A stretch of 26,870 nt of DNA from a virus, in IMG/VR virus record IMGVR_UViG_3300021185_000745, positions 1 through 26,870 of that record. One strand, written 5' to 3'. Below are positions 8,752 through 20,808 of the stretch, piece by piece. The notes beneath the pieces are model-generated. The model had not been told where the DNA came from. It made no database searches and was given only the letters and a program-made list of their open reading frames with translations. Numbering within the stretch: position 1 is the first letter of the stretch; every line of letters starts with the position of its first letter. A program made the position numbers and the translations under genes.

Positions 8752-8780
8752 AAAGGGGAGACTTCGGTCTCCCTTTTTTT
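8752..8780 (+). terminator. Rho-independent terminator after gene 32
   Basis: A stem 8752-8762/8767-8777 closes on a TTCG tetraloop (8763-8766). It is GC-rich at the top (GGGGAGAC/GTCTCCC) and runs into a T7 tract (8774-8780). It ends gene 32 transcription. The convergent tape measure gene stops inside the T tract. Read on the minus strand, the hairpin has only a short T run, so it should work weakly in that direction. Confidence 0.9.
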
Positions 8781-10521
8781 ATGGGGATATTCTACTACCC
8801 GCACTGGTATCAAATGCTGGAGATGGGTCTCCTACCATAGTGGTTTGTGAACCACCTGACTTCTGAGAGTTATCTACTTGGTTAGCATTGACCACAGTTG
8901 GGCCACCACCACCTTGAGATTGTGACATCTGTTCTGAACCTTCTTTCATGGTATCGCCTGATTGATTATTCAGTTTACCAACTCTTTCCTGTTCAGCTTT
9001 AGTTGCTTCGTATTGTTTTCTATCACCCTTACGTGCTTCAGTTTCCTTCTGTCCAGTATCCATTGTGATGTTATCTGCGAATGCACGAATACCAGCTGCA
9101 ATATCTTTACCCTTAACAGGAATCTTTGCGGCGAGCATCGCAAGACCTTCCAACATCAATCTGAATGGTGCAGTAATTGTATTAACAAATACACCAAGGA
9201 TAGTCATAACAATTTTACCAAAATCAAACTTACCTGTTTCATCTTTCATTGCATCGAACAATCCAAGGACTCTATCCGTAATACTATTGAATAACCCTTT
9301 AATCATATCTGAGAATGAGAACCCAGCAAGGAATTCTTGGACACCTTCCATACCGAACTTACCAGCAATCCATCCTACAATACCTTTGAGTAGGTCAAGA
9401 GGCATACCAATAAGACCGACTAGGATACCACTGATTGCACCAAGAACACCACCAATGATACTACCACCACTAGATGCGAACCCTTCTTTGAATCCTTTGA
9501 ATGCATCAATGATTGTCATTACGATAGTAAGCGGGAAGAATATCACACGACCAATAGTTCTGAAGAGAGGGAACATCTTACTGAATCCAGCACCCATAGA
9601 ACCGAGAACACCCTTAATACCTTGAACTGCTTTGGTTATGGAACCCATAATCTTGGCCATTCGGCCAGTACCCTTGGTTGCGCCTGTAGCTGCATCTGCT
9701 GACTTGGCAAGAGGGCCCATGATTTTATCAAATCCTCTTATAGGTGCAAAGAGACTCTTAACACCATTTTGTACTGAACGGAAACCTCTACCAATTGCAG
9801 CTATTCCAGCACCCAAACCTTTTGCCATCTTTTCGACAAAGTTCAGTTTACGGAAACTACCACGGATACTTCGGACTCCACCATTGAGTCCATTCATACC
9901 CATTCTAAATGAGGCACCAATTCCTGCTACAAGAAGTGAAATACGTTTAGGAATAGAACCGATATATTTTAATGCTGCCGTTAGACGTTTAGCGTTCTTA
10001 CCTCGGAAACCTTTAAATGCATCTTTTACAGTATCAACGAGTCGAGTCATTTGTGCGGTAAATCTTGGGAATATTTTTGCAAATCCCTTACCAATGCCAC
10101 GGAATAAAGCTACGTAGAGTCGTATGACTCCTCGTACAACTGCGAGAGTACCTTTAAGAAGAGGTTTAAAAAGAAAACGTAATCCCTTTGTAATCAGTAA
10201 TGCAGCTTTGGCAAATCCTTCAACGATACCTATAGCAAGACCAGCTACCGCACCAAGGATGGCACCAACAATCCACAACCAAGACTTCTTCTCTTTTCCG
10301 TCAGAACCTAGTTTGCCTTCCTTCTCTTTTCCGCCTTTACCCTTCTCACGTTTATCTTCGAGTGCATCAAGACGAGCCTGTTTCTGTAGGTCAAAGAAAT
10401 CCCCAAAGATGCCGACTAATTTGTCAACACCCTTTTTGACCTTTGTGGTCTTGTCCTGCTCTTCCATAGAGGATGCACGGACTTCTTCGATTACTTCTAA
10501 AAAACCTACTTCTTTTGCCAT
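8779..10521 (-). CDS. Tail tape measure protein (gp29-like role)
   Basis: The 580-residue protein is built of repetitive Gly/Ala/Lys/Phe-rich amphipathic helices. Hydrophobic segments lie at about 82-102, 325-340 and 353-378, and a charged N-terminal coiled region (about 10-80) is rich in Lys and Glu. The C-terminal tail (GPTVVNANQVDNSQKSGG) is of the low-complexity type seen in many tape measures. T4 gp29 is about 590 residues, so a similar tail length is expected, because tail length scales with tape measure length. It sits immediately downstream of the gp26 gene and its -1 frame extension, the canonical order chaperone, frameshift, tape measure. The start ATG lies 4 bp after the TAA that ends the extension. 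I recognise it by composition and position, not by direct sequence match to gp29. Confidence 0.8.
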   Translation of the reverse strand: MAKEVGFLEVIEEVRASSMEEQDKTTKVKKGVDKLVGIFGDFFDLQKQARLDALEDKREKGKGGKEKEGKLGSDGKEKKSWLWIVGAILGAVAGLAIGIVEGFAKAALLITKGLRFLFKPLLKGTLAVVRGVIRLYVALFRGIGKGFAKIFPRFTAQMTRLVDTVKDAFKGFRGKNAKRLTAALKYIGSIPKRISLLVAGIGASFRMGMNGLNGGVRSIRGSFRKLNFVEKMAKGLGAGIAAIGRGFRSVQNGVKSLFAPIRGFDKIMGPLAKSADAATGATKGTGRMAKIMGSITKAVQGIKGVLGSMGAGFSKMFPLFRTIGRVIFFPLTIVMTIIDAFKGFKEGFASSGGSIIGGVLGAISGILVGLIGMPLDLLKGIVGWIAGKFGMEGVQEFLAGFSFSDMIKGLFNSITDRVLGLFDAMKDETGKFDFGKIVMTILGVFVNTITAPFRLMLEGLAMLAAKIPVKGKDIAAGIRAFADNITMDTGQKETEARKGDRKQYEATKAEQERVGKLNNQSGDTMKEGSEQMSQSQGGGGPTVVNANQVDNSQKSGGSQTTMVGDPSPAFDTSAGSRISP

Positions 10522-10525
10522 CTTC

Positions 10526-10723
10526 TTAGTACCTTAGTTTACGTTCTTCTTCTTTTTGTCTTTCATTCTCTTCTTCAATCCACTGCATGAGGAGTGAGGT
10601 GTATATGTCCCTTTCCCACGGTATCATTGAATCTAATTCTGTCAAACTGTAATGATGATGTTGCATCATTGCGAAGTTTGTTTTATAATGGTTCTCTAAT
10701 GAGTCATGAGAAAGGGCGATTAA
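10526..10723 (-). CDS. -1 frame extension of gp26, GT-type tail chaperone domain
   Basis: These 65 codons are in the -1 frame relative to gene 26 and follow a T8 slippery tract at its very end. They have no start codon until M19, and no ribosome-binding site there. The coding character (LSHDSLENHYKTNF..., HHHYSLTELDSMIPWERDIY, then an acidic/basic helix WIEEENERQKEEERK) begins directly at the slip site, so initiation at M19 would lose conserved-looking sequence. The YSLTELDSMIPWER segment resembles T-domain sequences that follow the frameshift in other tailed phages. A fused product would be about 300 residues. Its likely role is to bind the tape measure during tail assembly. The extension ends 4 bp before the tape measure start. 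An alternative is a separate 47-aa gene from M19. Confidence 0.72.
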   Translation of the reverse strand, partial: LIALSHDSLENHYKTNFAMMQHHHYSLTELDSMIPWERDIYTSLLMQWIEEENERQKEEERKLRY

Positions 10724-11427
10724 AAAAAACTTTGCATCCCCTCTAATGTATGACTATTATCAGTTCCACATTTTTTACATTTAAATTCTTCTACCTGTCT
10801 TAGTTTGGGCATACCACCTAACCAATCTGCAAGTTTAACAAACTGTGCTGACGTTAACTGTTCGAGAAATTCTTTCATCTCAGCTTCAGATACGTCTGAC
10901 GCATCATAACGTTCATCATTACCTTGAACACCAGCGATACATTTCTGAATCGTCTCGTATGCAAATTCTGTTTCTGACTTTTCAGTACCCACAACACCAT
11001 CAACCATATCGTTGAAGTAAGGGTATCTCATCTCAACAGAGATATTATCTGTCAACTCAATCGTGTTACCCATTGCTGGTTCTGTACACTTGAGTTCTGA
11101 TAGATTCACATTAACTTCATTAGGGGTCTCACATTCCTCACATTTGATAGTGATGTCTGCGGTCTCACCTACTGATTTACTTCTGATTTGAGTGAAACAG
11201 AATTCCACATCAAATGTTGTAAATTTATTAATATCGATGTCTTCTTTGATACAAGCTTCAATACACTTGACCATTGCTTCCATCGCCTGTTTCTCATCAT
11301 TCGATTCGAATGCCATCAACAATATTTTTTCTTCCTTAACTAAGTAAGGTCTATATGATACTTGTTTTCCCGTTGATGGAATAACCATTTTATGGTTGGG
11401 GGTATCATTCAGTCTTGGTAGTGCCAT
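10720..11427 (-). CDS. 26: Baseplate hub assembly protein gp26 (tail chaperone)
   Basis: The N-terminus (VIPSTGKQVSYRPYLVKEEKILLMA) and the FTTFDVEFCFTQIRSKSVGE block match the T4 gp26 family as I recall it. In T4, gp26 is needed for assembly of the baseplate hub. Two CxxC pairs (CEEC 96-99, CKKC 217-220) probably bind one zinc ion. The protein is 235 aa (T4 about 208), and a good AGGAGA ribosome-binding site precedes ATG 11427. The final codons overlap the slippery T8 tract, so a minor product extended by 65 residues is expected. The gene lies between the tube-like gene and the tape measure gene. Confidence 0.78.
   Translation of the reverse strand: MALPRLNDTPNHKMVIPSTGKQVSYRPYLVKEEKILLMAFESNDEKQAMEAMVKCIEACIKEDIDINKFTTFDVEFCFTQIRSKSVGETADITIKCEECETPNEVNVNLSELKCTEPAMGNTIELTDNISVEMRYPYFNDMVDGVVGTEKSETEFAYETIQKCIAGVQGNDERYDASDVSEAEMKEFLEQLTSAQFVKLADWLGGMPKLRQVEEFKCKKCGTDNSHTLEGMQSFF
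10722..10729 (-). promoter_or_regulatory. Slippery T8 tract with upstream SD-like GAGGGG (10738-10743)
   Basis: On the minus strand gene 26 ends AGT TTT TTT TAA. Slipping back one base on T TTT TTT reads TTA ATC and on into 65 open codons. A GAGGGG element 8 nt upstream (10743-10738) resembles the internal Shine-Dalgarno sequences that stimulate -1 frameshifting in bacterial dnaX. A weak 5-bp hairpin lies downstream (10692-10712). Confidence 0.7.
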
Positions 11428-11443
11428 TATAATATTCTCCTAA

Positions 11444-12163
11444 TTATAAAAATTTACTAATAAGGGTTCCTGCTAATCCTTCTGCGAAACCGTCATTCGA
11501 GGTGACTTGGTCGCCCTCTTTACTAAACCAATCCCTGTACGATACTTGTACCGATACTTCAAGGACTGATGCTTCATCATTATTTAGTTCAATTGCTTGT
11601 AATGATGTAGGGAACGCTTTGTCTAACATACAAGTGTATGTAATCTTGTCACCAGTAATGAAATCTAAATCGATTTCACCTTGTGCAAGGTCAAGCGGCC
11701 CGATTTTAGGTAATCTATTCGCAATAGACGAAGGTAGTTTACCTGAATCAAAAATTTTCTTTTTCTTAATAGGGAAAGAAACTCCCTTCTTAATATGTTG
11801 TATGATGATAGGATGGGTGTAATCATTATAGTATCCAACCTCATATGCACCATCGTTTTGTCCACGTTTGATACATAAGTCTTGCCATTTCTCAAAATAT
11901 GTTCTAACTTTAAAATCATTCATCAAATAGAATGTGAGTGTTACATCGTCAAACAAATAACCATTTGCAATCTTCGTGTTCTGAATACCGATTACGTGTT
12001 CCGCTGTTTGAATCTGTCTGCCAGGAATTCCTACACCCTTACACAATAAATTCATACTACGAGACTCACCCAAGATAGGTGGTAAGAATACCTTGAATAG
12101 GTTGTTAAATGCAAATCCGCCAGACTTACCTACTTGTGCTTTAAAATCATCTATAGTTGCCAC
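11444..12163 (-). CDS. Tail-tube-fold protein (gp19/gp54-like)
   Basis: Two stretches match the T4 tail tube pattern by eye. FDDVTLTFYLMNDFKVRTYFEKWQ parallels FDDWTVTVMNDEAHDARQKFVDWQ of gp19, and FPTSLQAIELNNDEASVLE with SVQVSYRDW parallels WPTNVGELQLDW with LALDYW. At 239 aa it is longer than gp19 (about 163), so it may be a tube-baseplate adaptor such as gp54 rather than the main tube subunit. The start is GTG 12163, 1 bp after the previous stop, with AGGTAAG upstream. It is cotranscribed with genes 4 and 26. The main alternative is a second tail tube paralogue. Confidence 0.68.
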   Translation of the reverse strand: MATIDDFKAQVGKSGGFAFNNLFKVFLPPILGESRSMNLLCKGVGIPGRQIQTAEHVIGIQNTKIANGYLFDDVTLTFYLMNDFKVRTYFEKWQDLCIKRGQNDGAYEVGYYNDYTHPIIIQHIKKGVSFPIKKKKIFDSGKLPSSIANRLPKIGPLDLAQGEIDLDFITGDKITYTCMLDKAFPTSLQAIELNNDEASVLEVSVQVSYRDWFSKEGDQVTSNDGFAEGLAGTLISKFL

Positions 12164-12778: not shown

Positions 12779-13255
12779 TTATTTTTTACGTCTTTTGAAT
12801 GGTTTTAAAGGTTTTGTTGATTTGGGAATAAGACCCTTCAATGGTTGTGTTTTTTCTGTCCATATCTGAAATGTCCATCCACGGTCTTTTGCGTATTGGT
12901 CTGCCGCTTGCCATTTATTCATGTTCTTGACATAGGTTGCAGCTTCTGTCATAAACTTACGAGTTCGTGCTTGTCTCTTGGGGGGTGCGGTTTCTTTCTC
13001 AGGTTTAATTTCAACAAGTGTTGTCTTACCATTTGTATAGACTATCTTCAAGTCCATAAAGTATCTATGGTACTTCTTATCTACCTCATATAGATAAGGT
13101 ATAACAACTTCTTCGGAAGACCATGACTTGACGGATGGATTATCGTCACACCATTTGAATGCGTGTCGTTCCCATAACGAGCGATAAACCACCTTAGTAT
13201 AGTCACCCTCATACTTGGTTTTGTTTTTTACTGTATATCTACCCGAATATGCCAT
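12779..13255 (-). CDS. 4: Head completion protein gp4
   Basis: The 158-residue product starts MAYSGRYTVKNKTKYEGDYTKVVYRSLWER and continues through HRYFMDLKI, TTLVEIKPEKE, TEAATYVKNMNKWQAADQY and a WTFQIWTEK strand. This matches T4 gp4 (about 150 aa) closely in order. The D...ExK pattern (D in YFMDLKI, E-x-K in LVEIKPEK) is the restriction-endonuclease-like core of the family. gp4 acts after DNA packaging to let heads accept tails. The frame is open upstream to 13564, but ATG 13255 with ATAAGG before it matches the family start and lies outside the divergent gene 48. The basic C-terminal tail (KSTKPLKPFKRRKK) is an addition. Confidence 0.85.
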   Translation of the reverse strand: MAYSGRYTVKNKTKYEGDYTKVVYRSLWERHAFKWCDDNPSVKSWSSEEVVIPYLYEVDKKYHRYFMDLKIVYTNGKTTLVEIKPEKETAPPKRQARTRKFMTEAATYVKNMNKWQAADQYAKDRGWTFQIWTEKTQPLKGLIPKSTKPLKPFKRRKK

Positions 13256-13263
13256 AGAAACCT

Positions 13264-13271
13264 TATAAATA
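13264..13271 (+). promoter_or_regulatory. T4-type late promoter for the baseplate operon
   Basis: TATAAATA lies 48 bp before the ATG of gene 48, in the divergent gap between genes 4 and 48. It is the best candidate for driving 48, 53 and the hub and spike genes. Confidence 0.65.
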
Positions 13272-13289
13272 AAGAGAAAGACTTTTAAC

Positions 13290-13297
13290 TTATTTAG
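13290..13297 (-). promoter_or_regulatory. Possible late promoter for gene 4 (CTAAATAA)
   Basis: Minus-strand CTAAATAA, 34 bp upstream of gene 4, is a relaxed version of the late octamer. It is divergent from the TATAAATA of gene 48 in the same 64-bp gap. Confidence 0.35.
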
Positions 13298-13319
13298 TCG
13301 GAATTTAAAGAAGATAACT

Positions 13320-14318
13320 ATGGCAGACGTAACCGAAGCACAAAAAGTAACTAGAAAAACAAAGAATTTAGAGTATCCACTCAATAATCCTGCTGAATTT
13401 AAGGGTAGACTTAAGTTCACGTTGTTGAATGAACCAGGCGTAGACACAGGAAACCTTCTCAATACCTTCGGAGATAAGATTGCCTCCGTACAAAAGAGTG
13501 CTGGTGATGTAGTAGATGGTACTACGAGTGTTAAAGAAGCAAAAGATAATTCTATTGAGAACATCCAAACGGGTTTACAAAAGTTTCACGGTGAAGATAA
13601 CAAACCTAAGACAGGGAAGAAGGTTCCGAAAAGAACCAAGAAGACCGTAAAACTTTATCTACCTACTGGTCTTGCATATCGTGATACCGTTAACTACGAT
13701 AATATGGATATTGGTGCAATGGGTGCTGCAGCGGAACAAGCTGCAATGAAGGGTGGTTCTATCGTTAAGTCATTATTCGATGGTGGGATGCAAACCATTG
13801 GTGCTGCTATGAAAGGTAGTGCGGGTGGTGATGTTGCAAAACTTGCCATGATTAAATTGAGTGCGGGACTTCCCGATGAGATTGGGGGTGCATTGCGTAG
13901 TGCGGGACAGGTAACCACCAACCCTAATACTCGTGTGTTATTCAAGAGTGTGAACCTTCGTGAATTTGCGTTTGCATTTAAGTTCATCTCAACCTCTCCA
14001 AAGGAAGCAGAGGAAGTTAAAGCTATCATTCAGTTTTTCCGTGAAGAGTTATATCCCACAACAATCAATGCGGGTATAGCTGGTGCAAGTGTTTCTATCG
14101 GATATCGATTCCCTAATAAGTTTCTAATTGAACCATTGTATGATGGTAAACCAATCGCAACTAAAATTAAACCATGTTACTTACGTGATGTGAGTGTTAC
14201 CTACAACCCAACAGCATCTGCGATGTTTTCTGACGGTAACTTCCAAGAGATTGAAATGTCTCTTATGTTCCAAGAAACGAGAACATTACAACGTAGTGAT
14301 GTCAAGGCAGGATTCTAA
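13320..14318 (+). CDS. 48: Baseplate tail tube cap gp48
   Basis: The C-terminal half (FKSVNLREFAFAFKFISTSP, EEVKAIIQFFREELYP, YRFPNKFLIEPLYDG, YLRDVSVTYNP, FQEIEMSLMFQET, then RTLQRSDV) carries the tube-like fold and ending of T4 gp48. gp48 caps the baseplate hub and starts tail tube polymerisation. Residues about 125-200 are Gly/Ala/Met-rich. The length is 332 aa (T4 about 364). It is the first gene of the plus-strand baseplate operon, divergent from gene 4, and is followed 2 bp later by gene 53. The ribosome-binding site is weak (AAAGAAG). Confidence 0.85.
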   Translation: MADVTEAQKVTRKTKNLEYPLNNPAEFKGRLKFTLLNEPGVDTGNLLNTFGDKIASVQKSAGDVVDGTTSVKEAKDNSIENIQTGLQKFHGEDNKPKTGKKVPKRTKKTVKLYLPTGLAYRDTVNYDNMDIGAMGAAAEQAAMKGGSIVKSLFDGGMQTIGAAMKGSAGGDVAKLAMIKLSAGLPDEIGGALRSAGQVTTNPNTRVLFKSVNLREFAFAFKFISTSPKEAEEVKAIIQFFREELYPTTINAGIAGASVSIGYRFPNKFLIEPLYDGKPIATKIKPCYLRDVSVTYNPTASAMFSDGNFQEIEMSLMFQETRTLQRSDVKAGF

Positions 14319-15073: not shown

Positions 15074-16437
15074 TGGCCGAACAGAATCAATCCCAACAGT
15101 TCAAGATTACTGAAGCAAAGATATCCGCTGATAGACTTGGTGGATTTGATGCACTATCATATGATGTGCGTACATCTATATCAGAACTGAACATCTTTGA
15201 GAGTCTTGACAAACCCTATCTAACAGGTACGGTTGCAATTCTTGATGACAAAGGATTGTTTGATAAGATTTCATTTAACGGTACAGAGAAGCTGAGAATA
15301 TCTATTGCATCTGTGGGTAATGAACTTGACCCTATTATTGAACGAGAGTTCTTTTTAAACTCTGTTGAGAAACAAAAGAAATCAAACGACAATGGTAAAT
15401 CAAGTATGTTCTTGTTTACCTTTATCGACCAATCTGCATTTTCTAGTAGGTTGAATAAAGTCAGAAACTCATTTAATGGTAGTTTAGATAATATTATCAT
15501 AAAGACCGTAGCGAGATATCTAAAGAAAGATATAGACATTTCGTATATGACAACCGCCGAGAATCAAAGGAAGGGTACTGTACAGACTAACATTCAAGGT
15601 ATCATTCCGAATCTTACACCAATGCAAGCAATCAAATGGTTAATTGCACGTGCGACTACAACTACAGGTTCACCCTTTTATTGTTGGGCAACCATACACG
15701 ATGAGAGATTACGATTAGGTAATCTTGATGTTATGTTGACACAAAAACCTTTTAATAGTAAACTCCCATATTCATATAACCCATCTAATGTATCTACTGC
15801 GGAAGATGAAGGAGAGCTTGAGAAGGCATCTGTTATCAAAGACTTTATTGTGAATGAACAGGGTAATACATTAGAACTCATACAGGCGGGTTCTGTTTCA
15901 TCGAACCTAGGTAACACCAATCTTAATACAGGTCAGATAACAAATAATCATTTTTCTGTACGAAAAACTATTGACAATTTGGCAAAAGAAGGTATAATAG
16001 TAAAGGAACGTTCTGCAATCTTTGACCCTTATGCAAAGGTACAAGATATACTAATGGATGAGTATGATGCAGTAAACTATCACACAGTAACATCCACAGG
16101 AACATTCGGTAGTCGTAAGAGTTACCATGACGAATACAACCCCAATCTATTATTGAAAAAGATAGAGGGTCGTTCAATACGCAATCACCTCTTCAAGAAC
16201 GAGTTCCAAGCTGTTGTTGCGGGACAGGCATTCTTCATGGCCAAAGCATCTTGTGGTGACATGGTAAAATTAAACGTTACTAACGATAACACCGAGATTG
16301 AAGATGATGACAACGAAGATACTTTATTAGACAAACAGAGAAGTGGTAATTTCTTGATACATGATATCAGACATACATTCCAAGAAACTCAACACACTGT
16401 TAATATGAACCTTGTTAAATTGATGAAGGAACTATAA
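15073..16437 (+). CDS. 27: Baseplate central hub protein (gp27-like)
   Basis: This 454-aa protein has a beta-rich N-terminal part (FDALSYDVRTSISELNIFES, YLTGTVAILDDKGLFDKISF) typical of the gp27/gpD hub domain. A middle region, IKTVARYLKKDIDISY with NLTPMQAIKWLIARATTTTG, resembles the hub helices that precede the second barrel. The last 60 residues (GDMVKLNVTNDNTE, FLIHDIRHTFQE) fit the final barrel. T4 gp27 (about 391 aa) forms the trimeric ring under the tail tube. The call rests on fold-like pattern and on position directly before the OB-fold spike protein, rather than on high identity. An acidic loop (EIEDDDNEDTLLD) is inserted near the end. It overlaps both neighbours by one base. Confidence 0.7.
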   Translation: MAEQNQSQQFKITEAKISADRLGGFDALSYDVRTSISELNIFESLDKPYLTGTVAILDDKGLFDKISFNGTEKLRISIASVGNELDPIIEREFFLNSVEKQKKSNDNGKSSMFLFTFIDQSAFSSRLNKVRNSFNGSLDNIIIKTVARYLKKDIDISYMTTAENQRKGTVQTNIQGIIPNLTPMQAIKWLIARATTTTGSPFYCWATIHDERLRLGNLDVMLTQKPFNSKLPYSYNPSNVSTAEDEGELEKASVIKDFIVNEQGNTLELIQAGSVSSNLGNTNLNTGQITNNHFSVRKTIDNLAKEGIIVKERSAIFDPYAKVQDILMDEYDAVNYHTVTSTGTFGSRKSYHDEYNPNLLLKKIEGRSIRNHLFKNEFQAVVAGQAFFMAKASCGDMVKLNVTNDNTEIEDDDNEDTLLDKQRSGNFLIHDIRHTFQETQHTVNMNLVKLMKEL

Positions 16438-17309
16438 TGGAACTTGAGTATAAACCTATACCGTCCGAGTACTATGGGGATAACACACGTTGGTTTATTG
16501 CGACTGTTATTGATGCATCACCCCCATACGGATTTGAAGGACGTGTAAAGATTCGAGTACATGGATTGCATAGTCAATCAACAAAGGATATTCCTCAGAG
16601 TGACCTTCCTTGGGCCCAATGTGTTATTCCTACAACCGAAGGTGGTGTGTCGGGTATTGGTAGAATCCCACAATTACAACCGAGTGCATTGGTGTTTGGA
16701 TTCTTTGTTGATGGAATAAACTCTCAAACACCTATTGTAATAGGTAGTCTACCGCACATTGAATTACCTAATCGCTTACAATCAGAACAAGCAAATGAAG
16801 ATATTGGAGACGATACTAAACCTAATGGTATATTTCAAAAGGTAGTAAAAGTATTTCAACCAAAAGATGTTGATGTTGAAAACGAGTTGACTGGTAATAT
16901 TAATAATCGAATTAAACAATCAAGAGAAAAAGCTACAGTTAGATTCTTTCTAAATATAGGTTACAACTTAAAACAAAGTATTGCAATTGCAGCTGGTTTA
17001 AGTATGTCTAGTGGAATGAGAACAGGAACGAATGTACAGTCAAAAGGATTGGCGAGATTCTCGGATGAAAGATATAATGATTTGAAATCTTTTTCTAATG
17101 ACTATAATAATTTCTACACACAACTAGCCTTTATTGCATATGAACTTCGAGGTAAGAAGAACGGCGCAAACATACGACTATTAAGGGCGGATAAGATTGC
17201 GGGTAAAGAAGGCACTGCAAACATAGTAGCAAGATATTACTTGAACAACACATCTCTTTCAAAACAGATTGAACTGAAGGCAAACAGATTAGTTGACAGG
17301 ATTGGATAA
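16437..17309 (+). CDS. 5: Hub OB-fold protein with lysozyme-like domain (gp5 N-terminal equivalent)
   Basis: Residues 15-110 (NTRWFIATVIDASPPYGFEGRVKIRV..., LPWAQCVIPTTEGGVSG, PSALVFGFFVDGINSQTPIVIGSL) form the OB-fold of T4 gp5/VgrG spikes, which sits on the gp27 ring. Residues about 165-290 (VRFFLNIGYNLKQSIAIAAG..., SKGLARFSDERYNDLKSF, VARYYLN) resemble the phage tail lysozyme family. Those enzymes normally carry ESG where this protein has S191-S192-G193, so the catalytic glutamate appears to be missing. Unlike T4 gp5 (about 575 aa), no beta-helix follows. It is encoded two genes later. The domain may bind peptidoglycan without cutting it. Confidence 0.72.
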   Translation: MELEYKPIPSEYYGDNTRWFIATVIDASPPYGFEGRVKIRVHGLHSQSTKDIPQSDLPWAQCVIPTTEGGVSGIGRIPQLQPSALVFGFFVDGINSQTPIVIGSLPHIELPNRLQSEQANEDIGDDTKPNGIFQKVVKVFQPKDVDVENELTGNINNRIKQSREKATVRFFLNIGYNLKQSIAIAAGLSMSSGMRTGTNVQSKGLARFSDERYNDLKSFSNDYNNFYTQLAFIAYELRGKKNGANIRLLRADKIAGKEGTANIVARYYLNNTSLSKQIELKANRLVDRIG

Positions 17310-19318
17310 TGAGTACAAAAGACGATATTAACACAAAACTAAAATCTGTATCTGTTGCGGCTGGTAAACCTAAGACAGAATATACCGTTATAACAGTAAG
17401 GGGTGTCGATGAAGACGGATTCTCTTATACTGAAAGAAAGCGTGTCCCTGTATCAGAAGCACAAGGTGACGAATACCAAGATGCAGCTATCGTTGCACAA
17501 GAAGGTAACTACGCAAAACAAGCTACCAAGGTAGGACAAAAGGCGGGTGAAGTCAATGGTGGAGTATTATCTGTCGATGAACCTGGCGAAGAAGGTGAAG
17601 TAATTCTCAACGAAAGTATTGGTGAGGTTACAGATGATGTTGGTCTTGATGGTCTTGTAGACCCCACTGTTAATCTTAACTATGGGCCAGGCGTTCCGAC
17701 ATTTGACTATTTTGAGATTGATGAAAATGGAGTTCAACAATTTCTGCCCGACTCGGATATGATAAATGGTGCTCTCACTGCAACAAAAGAAGGTGGTGAT
17801 TCCGCACAACCTTTGAGTGGTATTCTAGATAGTCTGACGGGACTAGGAAGTGCGACAGGTAAACTTATTAATAAGAACTCAGGACTTGCAGTAGTTGGTG
17901 CGGGTGGTATCAGTGGTGTCCAAGCAGGAATCGATGCTGGTGTTGCGGGTGCTAACCAACTCGTATCTGAAGTAAAAGATGCAGTTGCAAATGTAGGTAG
18001 TGTTGCTGATGTGGGACAAATGGCAAATGCAGCTCAAGATGCCGCTATGAATGCAATCAATGATGTTGCAAGTAATCTTACATCTATTCCCACGTTTGCT
18101 CCAGGCGCTAGTCTTGATAACATAACTCCCGACTCGTTATTGGAACAAGTAAATAATATCTCAGGGTTTGGTGCTTTGTCTGCACTCACAACACAGGCAA
18201 AGAATACACTGTCTAAGTTTCCTAGTGTTGAAAGTTTCATGGATAAGGCAAAAGACCTTGTTTCAGATGTCACAGCATTGGCAGATGATATTACAGATTT
18301 TAACACGAATATCACATCACAAATAAACAAGGGTCTTGGTGATGCTGCTGGTGTACTTCAGGATATCACAGAAGGTATAACAGGGAAGGCAGAAAATACA
18401 ATTAAAGGTCTTGCGGGTTCAAGTGGTGTTGATATTCCAAAAGCGAAGGTGAACGAACTCGTAGCAAACGTTGCGTCCGAAGAACCACCAAAGGTTGCAA
18501 AAACAATTCAGACAACAACAGCAACTAATGAACAAGTTAGTCCTAGAATGCAGACTGTCGTTGAGGAAACAAAAGACGTAACGTCTACTCAGGACTTGAC
18601 AAATAAAGTTGAGAATAAAGCCCGAGAAGAGGGTATCCCCGAAGAAGAGATTGTGGCAACAACCGAAGTAATTAAACGTGCAGATGCCGAAGTAAAAAAT
18701 CTAGATACCACAGTATCAGGTTCGAATGTTATTGATGCGGAGTTCTTCGAAGAAAGTAGACCTATTGATGCTGATACACAGAAGTGGAGTGGTAGAGATA
18801 CTAAGAGTGATGCATTTACTTACATATCTTCGGTAGAAGAACTTGATGCAGAGATACGTTCAATAGAAAGAGTTCTTGACCAAGTTGTAATACATGCAAC
18901 CGAAACAACTACGGATAAGAATATTGGTTCTATTGAAATAAACAATATACAAAAAGATTTAGGGTTTGATGGTATTGGATACCATTATGTAATTAGAAGA
19001 GACGGTAGACTACAACGTGGTAGACCTATCAATAAGGCGGGAGAACATATTCCTGCTTTAGACAAAACATCTATTGCAGTAGTGTTAGTCGGTGGACTTA
19101 ACTGTTCAGCTGGAGAACCTAATACAGTTTCGTTTAGGTCAGCACAATCTTTCACTGTACAACAGTATAACACACTTGAGAAATTATTGCAATCTTTTTA
19201 TCGAAGATATCCTGGCGGTAAAGTGAACGGACACAATGAAATCGATGATAACGAATTCGACCCATACTTTGACGTTGAAGATTATATCGAAGCGACATTT
19301 AGGAAAACAAACGGATGA
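17309..19318 (+). CDS. Tail-associated N-acetylmuramoyl-L-alanine amidase with long N-terminal region
   Basis: The C-terminal domain (about 520-669) is a type-2 amidase that should cut the amide bond between muramic acid and the stem peptide. Zinc ligands are H529 (VVIHAT), H642 (GHNEID) and D651 (FDPYFDV), the His-His-Asp set of AmpD rather than the His-His-Cys of T7 lysozyme. Y558-H559 (GYHYVIRRDGRL) marks the second active-site strand. The first 500 residues are Gly/Ala/Asp-rich with amphipathic helices (about 200-345) and an acidic stretch (415-470), probably a tether or structural part of the hub. It is coupled by overlaps to the hub protein (1 bp) and to the spike gene (ATGA, 4 bp), so it is most likely a virion enzyme that thins the wall during infection. 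Confidence 0.82.
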   Translation: MSTKDDINTKLKSVSVAAGKPKTEYTVITVRGVDEDGFSYTERKRVPVSEAQGDEYQDAAIVAQEGNYAKQATKVGQKAGEVNGGVLSVDEPGEEGEVILNESIGEVTDDVGLDGLVDPTVNLNYGPGVPTFDYFEIDENGVQQFLPDSDMINGALTATKEGGDSAQPLSGILDSLTGLGSATGKLINKNSGLAVVGAGGISGVQAGIDAGVAGANQLVSEVKDAVANVGSVADVGQMANAAQDAAMNAINDVASNLTSIPTFAPGASLDNITPDSLLEQVNNISGFGALSALTTQAKNTLSKFPSVESFMDKAKDLVSDVTALADDITDFNTNITSQINKGLGDAAGVLQDITEGITGKAENTIKGLAGSSGVDIPKAKVNELVANVASEEPPKVAKTIQTTTATNEQVSPRMQTVVEETKDVTSTQDLTNKVENKAREEGIPEEEIVATTEVIKRADAEVKNLDTTVSGSNVIDAEFFEESRPIDADTQKWSGRDTKSDAFTYISSVEELDAEIRSIERVLDQVVIHATETTTDKNIGSIEINNIQKDLGFDGIGYHYVIRRDGRLQRGRPINKAGEHIPALDKTSIAVVLVGGLNCSAGEPNTVSFRSAQSFTVQQYNTLEKLLQSFYRRYPGGKVNGHNEIDDNEFDPYFDVEDYIEATFRKTNG

Positions 19319-20808
19319 CAAGTAAACAAGACAATTTTCAGGGGAGAGTCTCTAAACTAGGAGAAGGTCTAGAGAGAACTCTTGGTGTTCCACAGGACGG
19401 TGGGGTTGACCCAACGGGCGAGTATCCTAAAAGAGAATACAACTTTGGTTCGTCAATCAACCAAGCTGCACGTGGTACTAAGATTAATGAACTCTATATT
19501 GGTGGTGGTGATATTGGTCTATCTCTTGACCTTGCACCCCAAAGACCAAGTGAATACCCATTTAACCAAGTACAAGAAACTCCGAGTGGTCATGTCATTG
19601 AGATGGATGATACTGCGGGGGGTGAACGTGTTCTTATCAGACACCGTAAAGGTGCGGGGGTAGAACTTCGTGCAGACGGGTCTGTTATCATATCTTCTGT
19701 TAATAACAAGGTTGAAGTAACAGGTGGTGACCAAACAACTATTGTGGAAGGACACGGTAATCTTATCTACAAAGGTAATTTGAATCTTGTGGTCACTGGA
19801 GATTACAATGTGGACGTAGGTGGTAACTACAATGTCCAAGTTGCGGGTACTCGTGTAACAAATATTGGAAGAAATAGTAACGAACATATCGAAGGTAATG
19901 ATACACAAATCATTAAGAAAAATAGGTCTACTCGTATTCTTGGAAAAGATACTAAGATAACCTATGGAACTCAATCAGATTATGTTCGTGGTAACGCCAA
20001 GAAATGGGTACAGAAAAGTAATGAAATTGCAGTCGAAGAAAATATGTTCACGAGTGCAAAGACTTCCTATGCAGTAACATCCAAAACCGCATCTCTAGTG
20101 GGTAATGATTTTGTATCTGTCATGGGTAATGATGGTACTATTGGTGGTACTAACGTTGACTTCACAGGTAAAGTGTATATGGGTAAAGAAGGCCCGACTC
20201 CATTCACAAGTGGTGCATCATTCTACGGTTCGTTTCATGGTCAGGCAACTGAGGCAATTTGGTCGAAGTTTGCTTTTAAAGCAGAACAATCGAAATTTGC
20301 AGAAGATGCCGAAGTTGCAAGAGCAGCTGGTGGTGGTGCGAACTTTGGTGCTGTATATGCGCCTGGCAGTGAACACGGTAAAAAGGGTGGCGCTCCTGAT
20401 AGAGTTGCGAATCAAGAAACTTTACAACCCGATGGGCCACCGCCTGTCGCACCTCTTATTGGTGCATACACAAGTATGGGTGACTTTGCAATCCGTACTG
20501 TGGTAATCGATGCGGATGATAGATTATTGAACAAGATGATATTCACAGATGACTATCAGAACTACTTTAATAAACCACCTACGACTCAAGAGATACGTAG
20601 TGCATTCCGTGACCCAGCTATCAAAGATGCATTGGGTGGACAAATGGTAACTGAACAGAGATTGTCAACAAACTATGCAAGAACGACTCCACCAAAAATT
20701 GGTAGGACATCCTCTTCGAAACCGACACCTCGTTTTGGTTTCACTCCGATAGGTAACTCAACAGAGAATAGAGGAAAACGATTTACACCGAAGGTAACTA
20801 AAAAATGA
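19315..20808 (+). CDS. Central spike beta-helix protein (gp5 C-terminal/VgrG-like)
   Basis: Residues about 85-285 are a run of short beta repeats with regular Val, Ile, Gly, Asn and Asp (GHVIEMDDTAGGERVLI, GAGVELRADGSVIISSVNN, NLNLVVTGDYNVDVGGNYNV). This is the pattern of the trimeric beta-helix of T4 gp5 and VgrG. IEMDDTAGGERVLIRHR is the typical entry segment after an OB domain. No OB or lysozyme domain precedes it here, because that part is encoded separately at 16437-17309. The C-terminus (about 290-497) is Pro/Gly/Ser-rich and of unknown fold. It probably forms the membrane-piercing needle shaft. It overlaps both neighbours by ATGA. Confidence 0.78.
   Translation: MTSKQDNFQGRVSKLGEGLERTLGVPQDGGVDPTGEYPKREYNFGSSINQAARGTKINELYIGGGDIGLSLDLAPQRPSEYPFNQVQETPSGHVIEMDDTAGGERVLIRHRKGAGVELRADGSVIISSVNNKVEVTGGDQTTIVEGHGNLIYKGNLNLVVTGDYNVDVGGNYNVQVAGTRVTNIGRNSNEHIEGNDTQIIKKNRSTRILGKDTKITYGTQSDYVRGNAKKWVQKSNEIAVEENMFTSAKTSYAVTSKTASLVGNDFVSVMGNDGTIGGTNVDFTGKVYMGKEGPTPFTSGASFYGSFHGQATEAIWSKFAFKAEQSKFAEDAEVARAAGGGANFGAVYAPGSEHGKKGGAPDRVANQETLQPDGPPPVAPLIGAYTSMGDFAIRTVVIDADDRLLNKMIFTDDYQNYFNKPPTTQEIRSAFRDPAIKDALGGQMVTEQRLSTNYARTTPPKIGRTSSSKPTPRFGFTPIGNSTENRGKRFTPKVTKK

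Follow-up and report, generated by a model that had tools for sequence, protein, structure and literature searches.

The DNA analysed here, referred to as the window (26,870 nt, positions 1 to 26,870 of IMG/VR virus record IMGVR_UViG_3300021185_000745), carries a T4-like gene 26 that ends on a run of thymines, with a second reading frame crossing its stop codon one base back. The question is whether these are two genes or a single gene whose longer product is made by frameshifting. Gene 26 (10720..11427, minus strand, as are all features of this locus) encodes 235 aa and would be the short form of a tail assembly chaperone (TAC-N, the equivalent of 'G'). Its 3' end reads AGT TTT TTT TAA. The T8 run (10722..10729) includes the first T of the stop codon, and the slip heptamer T TTT TTT (10723..10729) is followed at once by TAA. 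Past the slip the -1 frame reads LIALSHDSLENHYKTNFAM...KLRY, giving an extension of 65 residues and a stop (10526..10723, stop codon at 10528-10526), the candidate equivalent of TAC-C or 'T' and of the 'gp51' of cyanophages. Only 4 nt (10525-10522) lie between this stop and the ATG (10521) of a 580-aa ORF, and the first ATG, GTG or TTG of the extension is codon 19. An earlier note, made from these letters alone, had reported the T8 ending, the 65 open codons, the 4-nt spacing and the lack of a start codon before M19, and all four hold. A fusion read across the slip, join(11427..10723, 10723..10526), is predicted to be 300 aa long with the junction MQSFF-LIALS (...GMQSFF-LIALSHDSLENHYK).

The gene order is tail tube, gp26, extension and tape-measure-like ORF. 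The tail tube protein gene (11444..12163, phrog_45, E 3.9e-35) lies upstream of gp26. The 580-aa ORF (8779..10521) is probably the tape measure protein: its matches are weak (phrog_58 tail length tape measure, E 2.7e-4; phrog_27688, E 1e-7), and it varies from relative to relative.

We consider it very likely, on the comparative evidence below, that gene 26 and the -1 frame across its end together make up a single recoded tail assembly chaperone gene, which gives a short and a long form by a -1 slip. Most ribosomes would end at TAA and yield the short gp26. A minority would move one base backwards on T TTT TTT, where the two Phe-tRNAs would re-pair, and would read 65 more residues to complete the 300-aa long form. 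The GAGGGG upstream of the tract probably pauses the ribosome and aids the slip. If the lambda pair gpG/gpGT is a guide, the short form would coat the tape measure protein and the extension would recruit tail tube subunits.

Frameshifting of T4-like chaperones is already described, and the window is a sound further member. It is reportedly kept in several T4-like groups, and T4 is said to use genes 26 and 51. A 2016 review treats T4 as the exception to the conserved G-T frameshifting. Vladimirov, Gautam and Davidson (Virology 2022, 566:9-15) reportedly identified the T4-like chaperone genes; as relayed by one citing paper, that work places poly-T -1 signals in the TAC-N genes of T4-like phages, and as relayed by another, it describes short and fused long gene copies in some of them. 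As relayed there, the TAC-N and TAC-NC genes follow the same principle as the window, which is another marine member. The earlier note's reading of the locus appears largely right, judging by the offset, the heptamer, selection and the in-frame fusion in T4 gp51, with gp26 and the extension as a candidate G/GT pair; the idea itself predates the note. Added in the present analysis are a quantified Shine-Dalgarno (SD)-like element and a downstream stem-loop signal, seen in relatives and not clearly in the window.

Profile searches place both parts in known families. gp26 matches PF12322 (E 1.9e-55, 188 bits against a curated cut-off of 24.5) and phrog_150 (E 7.5e-60). Matches of the extension are to phrog_634, 'baseplate hub assembly catalyst' (E 7.7e-29, profile positions 56-119 of 121), to phrog_150 at columns 231-277, which lie past the usual gp26 end, and to the C-terminus of T4 gp51. 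A PDB sequence search with gp26 as query returned no match, and NCBIfam returned none above cut-off. Among solved structures, the AlphaFold2 model of gp26 (pLDDT 91, pTM 0.84) matched best to 3fgx (Z 8.0), 2ob9 (Z 7.5) and 5ir0 (Z 4.4), other chains reaching 3.7 at most. The 2ob9 structure, the HK97 tail assembly chaperone, superposes on predicted gp26 residues 1-86 (85 residues, rmsd 4.2, 11% identity over the aligned part, gp26 being the longer protein) with a Z of 7.5, which is of medium strength and, like any Z below 8, can reflect a common structural arrangement. For the same pair Foldseek gave a probability of 0.85, yet a poor E-value of 0.77. The modelled fold supports a chaperone role rather than proving it. 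Residues 87-235 hold CxxC pairs and have weak zinc-ribbon matches below cut-off.

The frameshift could be real and its products could still act elsewhere, as a part of the baseplate hub or a factor in its assembly and not as a tape-measure chaperone of the G/GT type. For many years T4 gp26 was counted among the hub subunits, and gp51 was given as a factor for hub assembly that the particle lacks. However, the gene order, with its probable tape measure ORF, and the short/long design fit tail assembly chaperones, the HK97 chaperone is among the top matches of the predicted fold, and Vladimirov et al. 2022 reportedly arrived at the chaperone assignment already. We regard a hub role as improbable.

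T4 itself helps to define the extension. Its gp51 (249 aa) contains PF12322 at residues 1-201 (E 3.9e-52) and matches phrog_150 over columns 13-280, extension included; its gp26 (208 aa) has the PF12322 domain without the extension. Since T4 gp51 is a gp26-like domain plus the extension in one frame, the fusion is found in frame as an actual gene, which in T4 accompanies a separate short copy. PF12322 is thus common to both T4 proteins and gp51 carries the same extension as the window phage, but T4 differs in having two separate genes on opposite strands, and the slippery run is absent from the 3' end of gene 26 (GAG TTC TTT GAG TTA CTA TAA). The earlier note had counted relatives with the extension in frame 0 against frameshifting. 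Such relatives do exist, T4 among them, but the case for frameshifting survives them, since a separate short gp26 without a slippery 3' run is retained in T4. A single place covers 80% or more of T4 gp51 in 1,334 phage records.

Conservation was assessed on IMG/VR loci found via gp26 and via the extension, together with annotated phage records (cyanophages, KVP40, HTVC008M, and rhizobial, Stenotrophomonas, Aeromonas, Cronobacter, Variovorax and other phages). The pattern of one extension search contained the FFL motif, which biased part of the set to intact slips; the gp26 search and the second search by extension were made without this pattern. All 198 alignable loci having separate parts (198 of 198) carry the extension in the -1 frame of gp26, and the remaining 3 loci (T4, RB43 and Erwinia phage IT22) are of the split-gene type. 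The heptamer T TTT TTN occurs in the same phase in 185 of 186 distinct loci (N is C in 134, T in 34, A in 16 and G in 1) and in all 102 clusters below 70% gp26 identity. The run is only T6 in 151 of these 185 relatives and the phase is unchanged. The slippery T tract, the -1 offset and the YSLTELDSMIPWER block, which the earlier note had proposed to compare across relatives, are all conserved. TBLASTN found the extension in 567 phage records, and among the matches listed the homology starts at query residue 1-4, which is 5' of the gp26 stop and at or beside the FF slip codons. With hundreds of extension homologues in the same relation to gp26, the -1 arrangement is far beyond chance.

A homopolymer sequencing error was also considered as the source of the frame break and was ruled out, as relatives in which T6 is followed by another base keep the same -1 offset.

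A few loci depart from the common pattern. In the sole locus without the heptamer (L178:1480-1520), gp26 ends early and the slip region is missing, though the extension is intact, probably through a deletion or an assembly fault. The distant Vibrio phages K474 and BX-1 (L043, L044) have a shorter T run and an ATG overlapping the gp26 stop, and may use stop-start coupling or a different slip.

Selection was compared between reading frames in the relatives. The -1 frame has a pN/pS of 0.27 over the 16 codons from the slip to the first conserved ATG, and the other two frames have 1.2-1.4, which agrees with the earlier impression that coding-like sequence begins right at the slip. Codons 22-45 of the extension have a pN/pS of 0.13 in the -1 frame. 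Purifying selection acts from the slip and not from M19, which argues that translation enters at the slip. These results weigh against the extension being a small gene of its own (gp51), with translation re-initiated past the gp26 stop or begun at a start codon of the extension. GenBank records do carry a separate 'gp51' CDS, roughly one relative in two has an ATG a few bases past the gp26 stop (the first ATG is at index 5 in 89 of 185), and in KVP40 and a few others an ATG overlaps the stop. The window and about half of the relatives, however, have no ATG close to that stop, which excludes re-initiation as the common mechanism. The conserved feature is the heptamer and not a start codon, the residues under purifying selection include those 5' of the ATG, and T4 encodes both parts in one protein. 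A separate gene is, in our judgement, very improbable. Slippage of RNA polymerase on the T8 run, yielding in-frame mRNAs, is hardly credible as the source of the long form: the window T8 is long enough for some of it, but the T6 of most relatives, with phase kept, is too short to favour it, and a codon-phased heptamer with an SD-like element at fixed spacing points to ribosomes.

The frameshifted reading of the locus also fits the sequence 5' of the heptamer. GAGGGG (10738..10743) is located 8 nt upstream of the tract, where the earlier note had placed it. In relatives the nucleotides themselves are SD-like in the segment 8-14 nt before the heptamer: its Glu codon is GAG in 117 of 152 cases against 30% in the gene body, and its Gly codon is GGG in 25% against a background of 7%. 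The median anti-SD pairing energy is -7.4 kcal/mol against -1.9 kcal/mol in the gene body, calculated with a standard 16S tail that may not be the host's. The upstream GAGGGG is, on this codon choice, under selection at synonymous sites.

Downstream, relatives show a folding signal. The 60-nt windows starting 13 nt from the heptamer start have a mean z of -1.98 (51 representatives), and control windows, within gp26 or at least 60 nt downstream, have z values of -0.5 to +0.1. An MFE of -15 or lower was found in 19% of post-slip windows against 0-3% of controls. RNAalifold detected no consensus structure in 102 representatives or in the 37 window-like ones, and there was no common hairpin position. 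A hairpin scan requiring exact paired ends showed no enrichment; its design left out known strong hairpins, and it was superseded by the window-by-window MFE.

Strong stem-loops (-17 to -33 kcal/mol) start within about 15 nt of the heptamer in several cyanophage-like loci (L013, L016, L027, L030, L031, L066). Their position is variable and none was seen in the window. A different stem-loop occurs within the window's extension near CAAACTTCGCAATGATGCAACATCATCATTACAGTTTG (10640-10680, minus strand), about 40 nt past the slip, and an 85-nt stretch there has a z of -2.74.

Just 3' of the slip the window has no significant RNA structure (z -0.06 to -1.15). The 5' SD-like element is therefore well supported in the window and the 3' stem-loop is not. 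Of the dnaX-type stimulation suggested by the earlier note, the upstream half stands, given the codon bias in relatives; the likeness to a dnaX-type -1 frameshift is confined to this element, the window showing no significant 3' stem-loop of the dnaX kind, unlike many relatives. We tentatively suggest, with rather less than even confidence, that the marine T4-like slip signal is a composite whose stimulators turn over among lineages: the SD-like element would be nearly universal, the stem-loop variable in position, strong in some cyanophage-like loci (-33 kcal/mol in L013) and absent in the window, where the T8 run directly before the stop may compensate. A text search of an E. coli survey paper found no value for slip efficiency on U UUU UUY.

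The slip heptamer of lambda is G GGA AAG, unlike the T TTT TTT of the window. In design the proposed pair resembles that of lambda: gpG/gpGT, as summarised in a review, is also a short form and a -1 frameshifted long form encoded directly 5' of the tape measure gene. In the chaperones of Vandenendeviridae and Andersonviridae (phage Adele, PMC12846349), too, the gene for the short form has a poly-T site of -1 frameshifting at its 3' end, and they are usually annotated as two genes; they differ in their GTTTTT motif and belong to other phage families.

According to Sullivan et al. 2010, the gp51 of cyanophages is about 20% as long as other gp51 proteins, and the small marine T4-like gp51 was thought to be without the first ~200 residues of T4 gp51. 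The comparisons made here suggest that this small 'gp51' is instead the tail that frameshifting adds to gp26, and not a simple truncation. The locus would then offer a test case for how ribosomal slippage sets the ratio of chaperone forms, and for the way in which a second gene took the place of a frameshift in the T4 group.

Annotation of the extension is uneven. In five public phage records (L031, L033, L038, L040, L042) the conserved extension is unannotated. Other inspected records give it as a separate gp51 starting 3' of the slip, and the joined product is annotated in none of those inspected.

Much of the remaining window contains genes of a T4-like neck, baseplate and hub, together with one for a single-strand DNA binding protein. 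The T4-like gp5 hub/lysozyme matches are divided between two ORFs (16437-20808, plus strand): ORF 16437-17309 matches phrog_430 columns 15-109, ORF 19315-20808 matches columns 332-538, and an amidase-bearing ORF (17309-19318, phrog_822) separates them. The longest-ORF call for a head-closure/TnsA-like gene (12779-13564, minus strand) overlaps a divergent gp48-like gene (13320-14318, plus strand) by 245 nt. Its family match begins only at residue 104, and the true start is probably 3' of the overlap.
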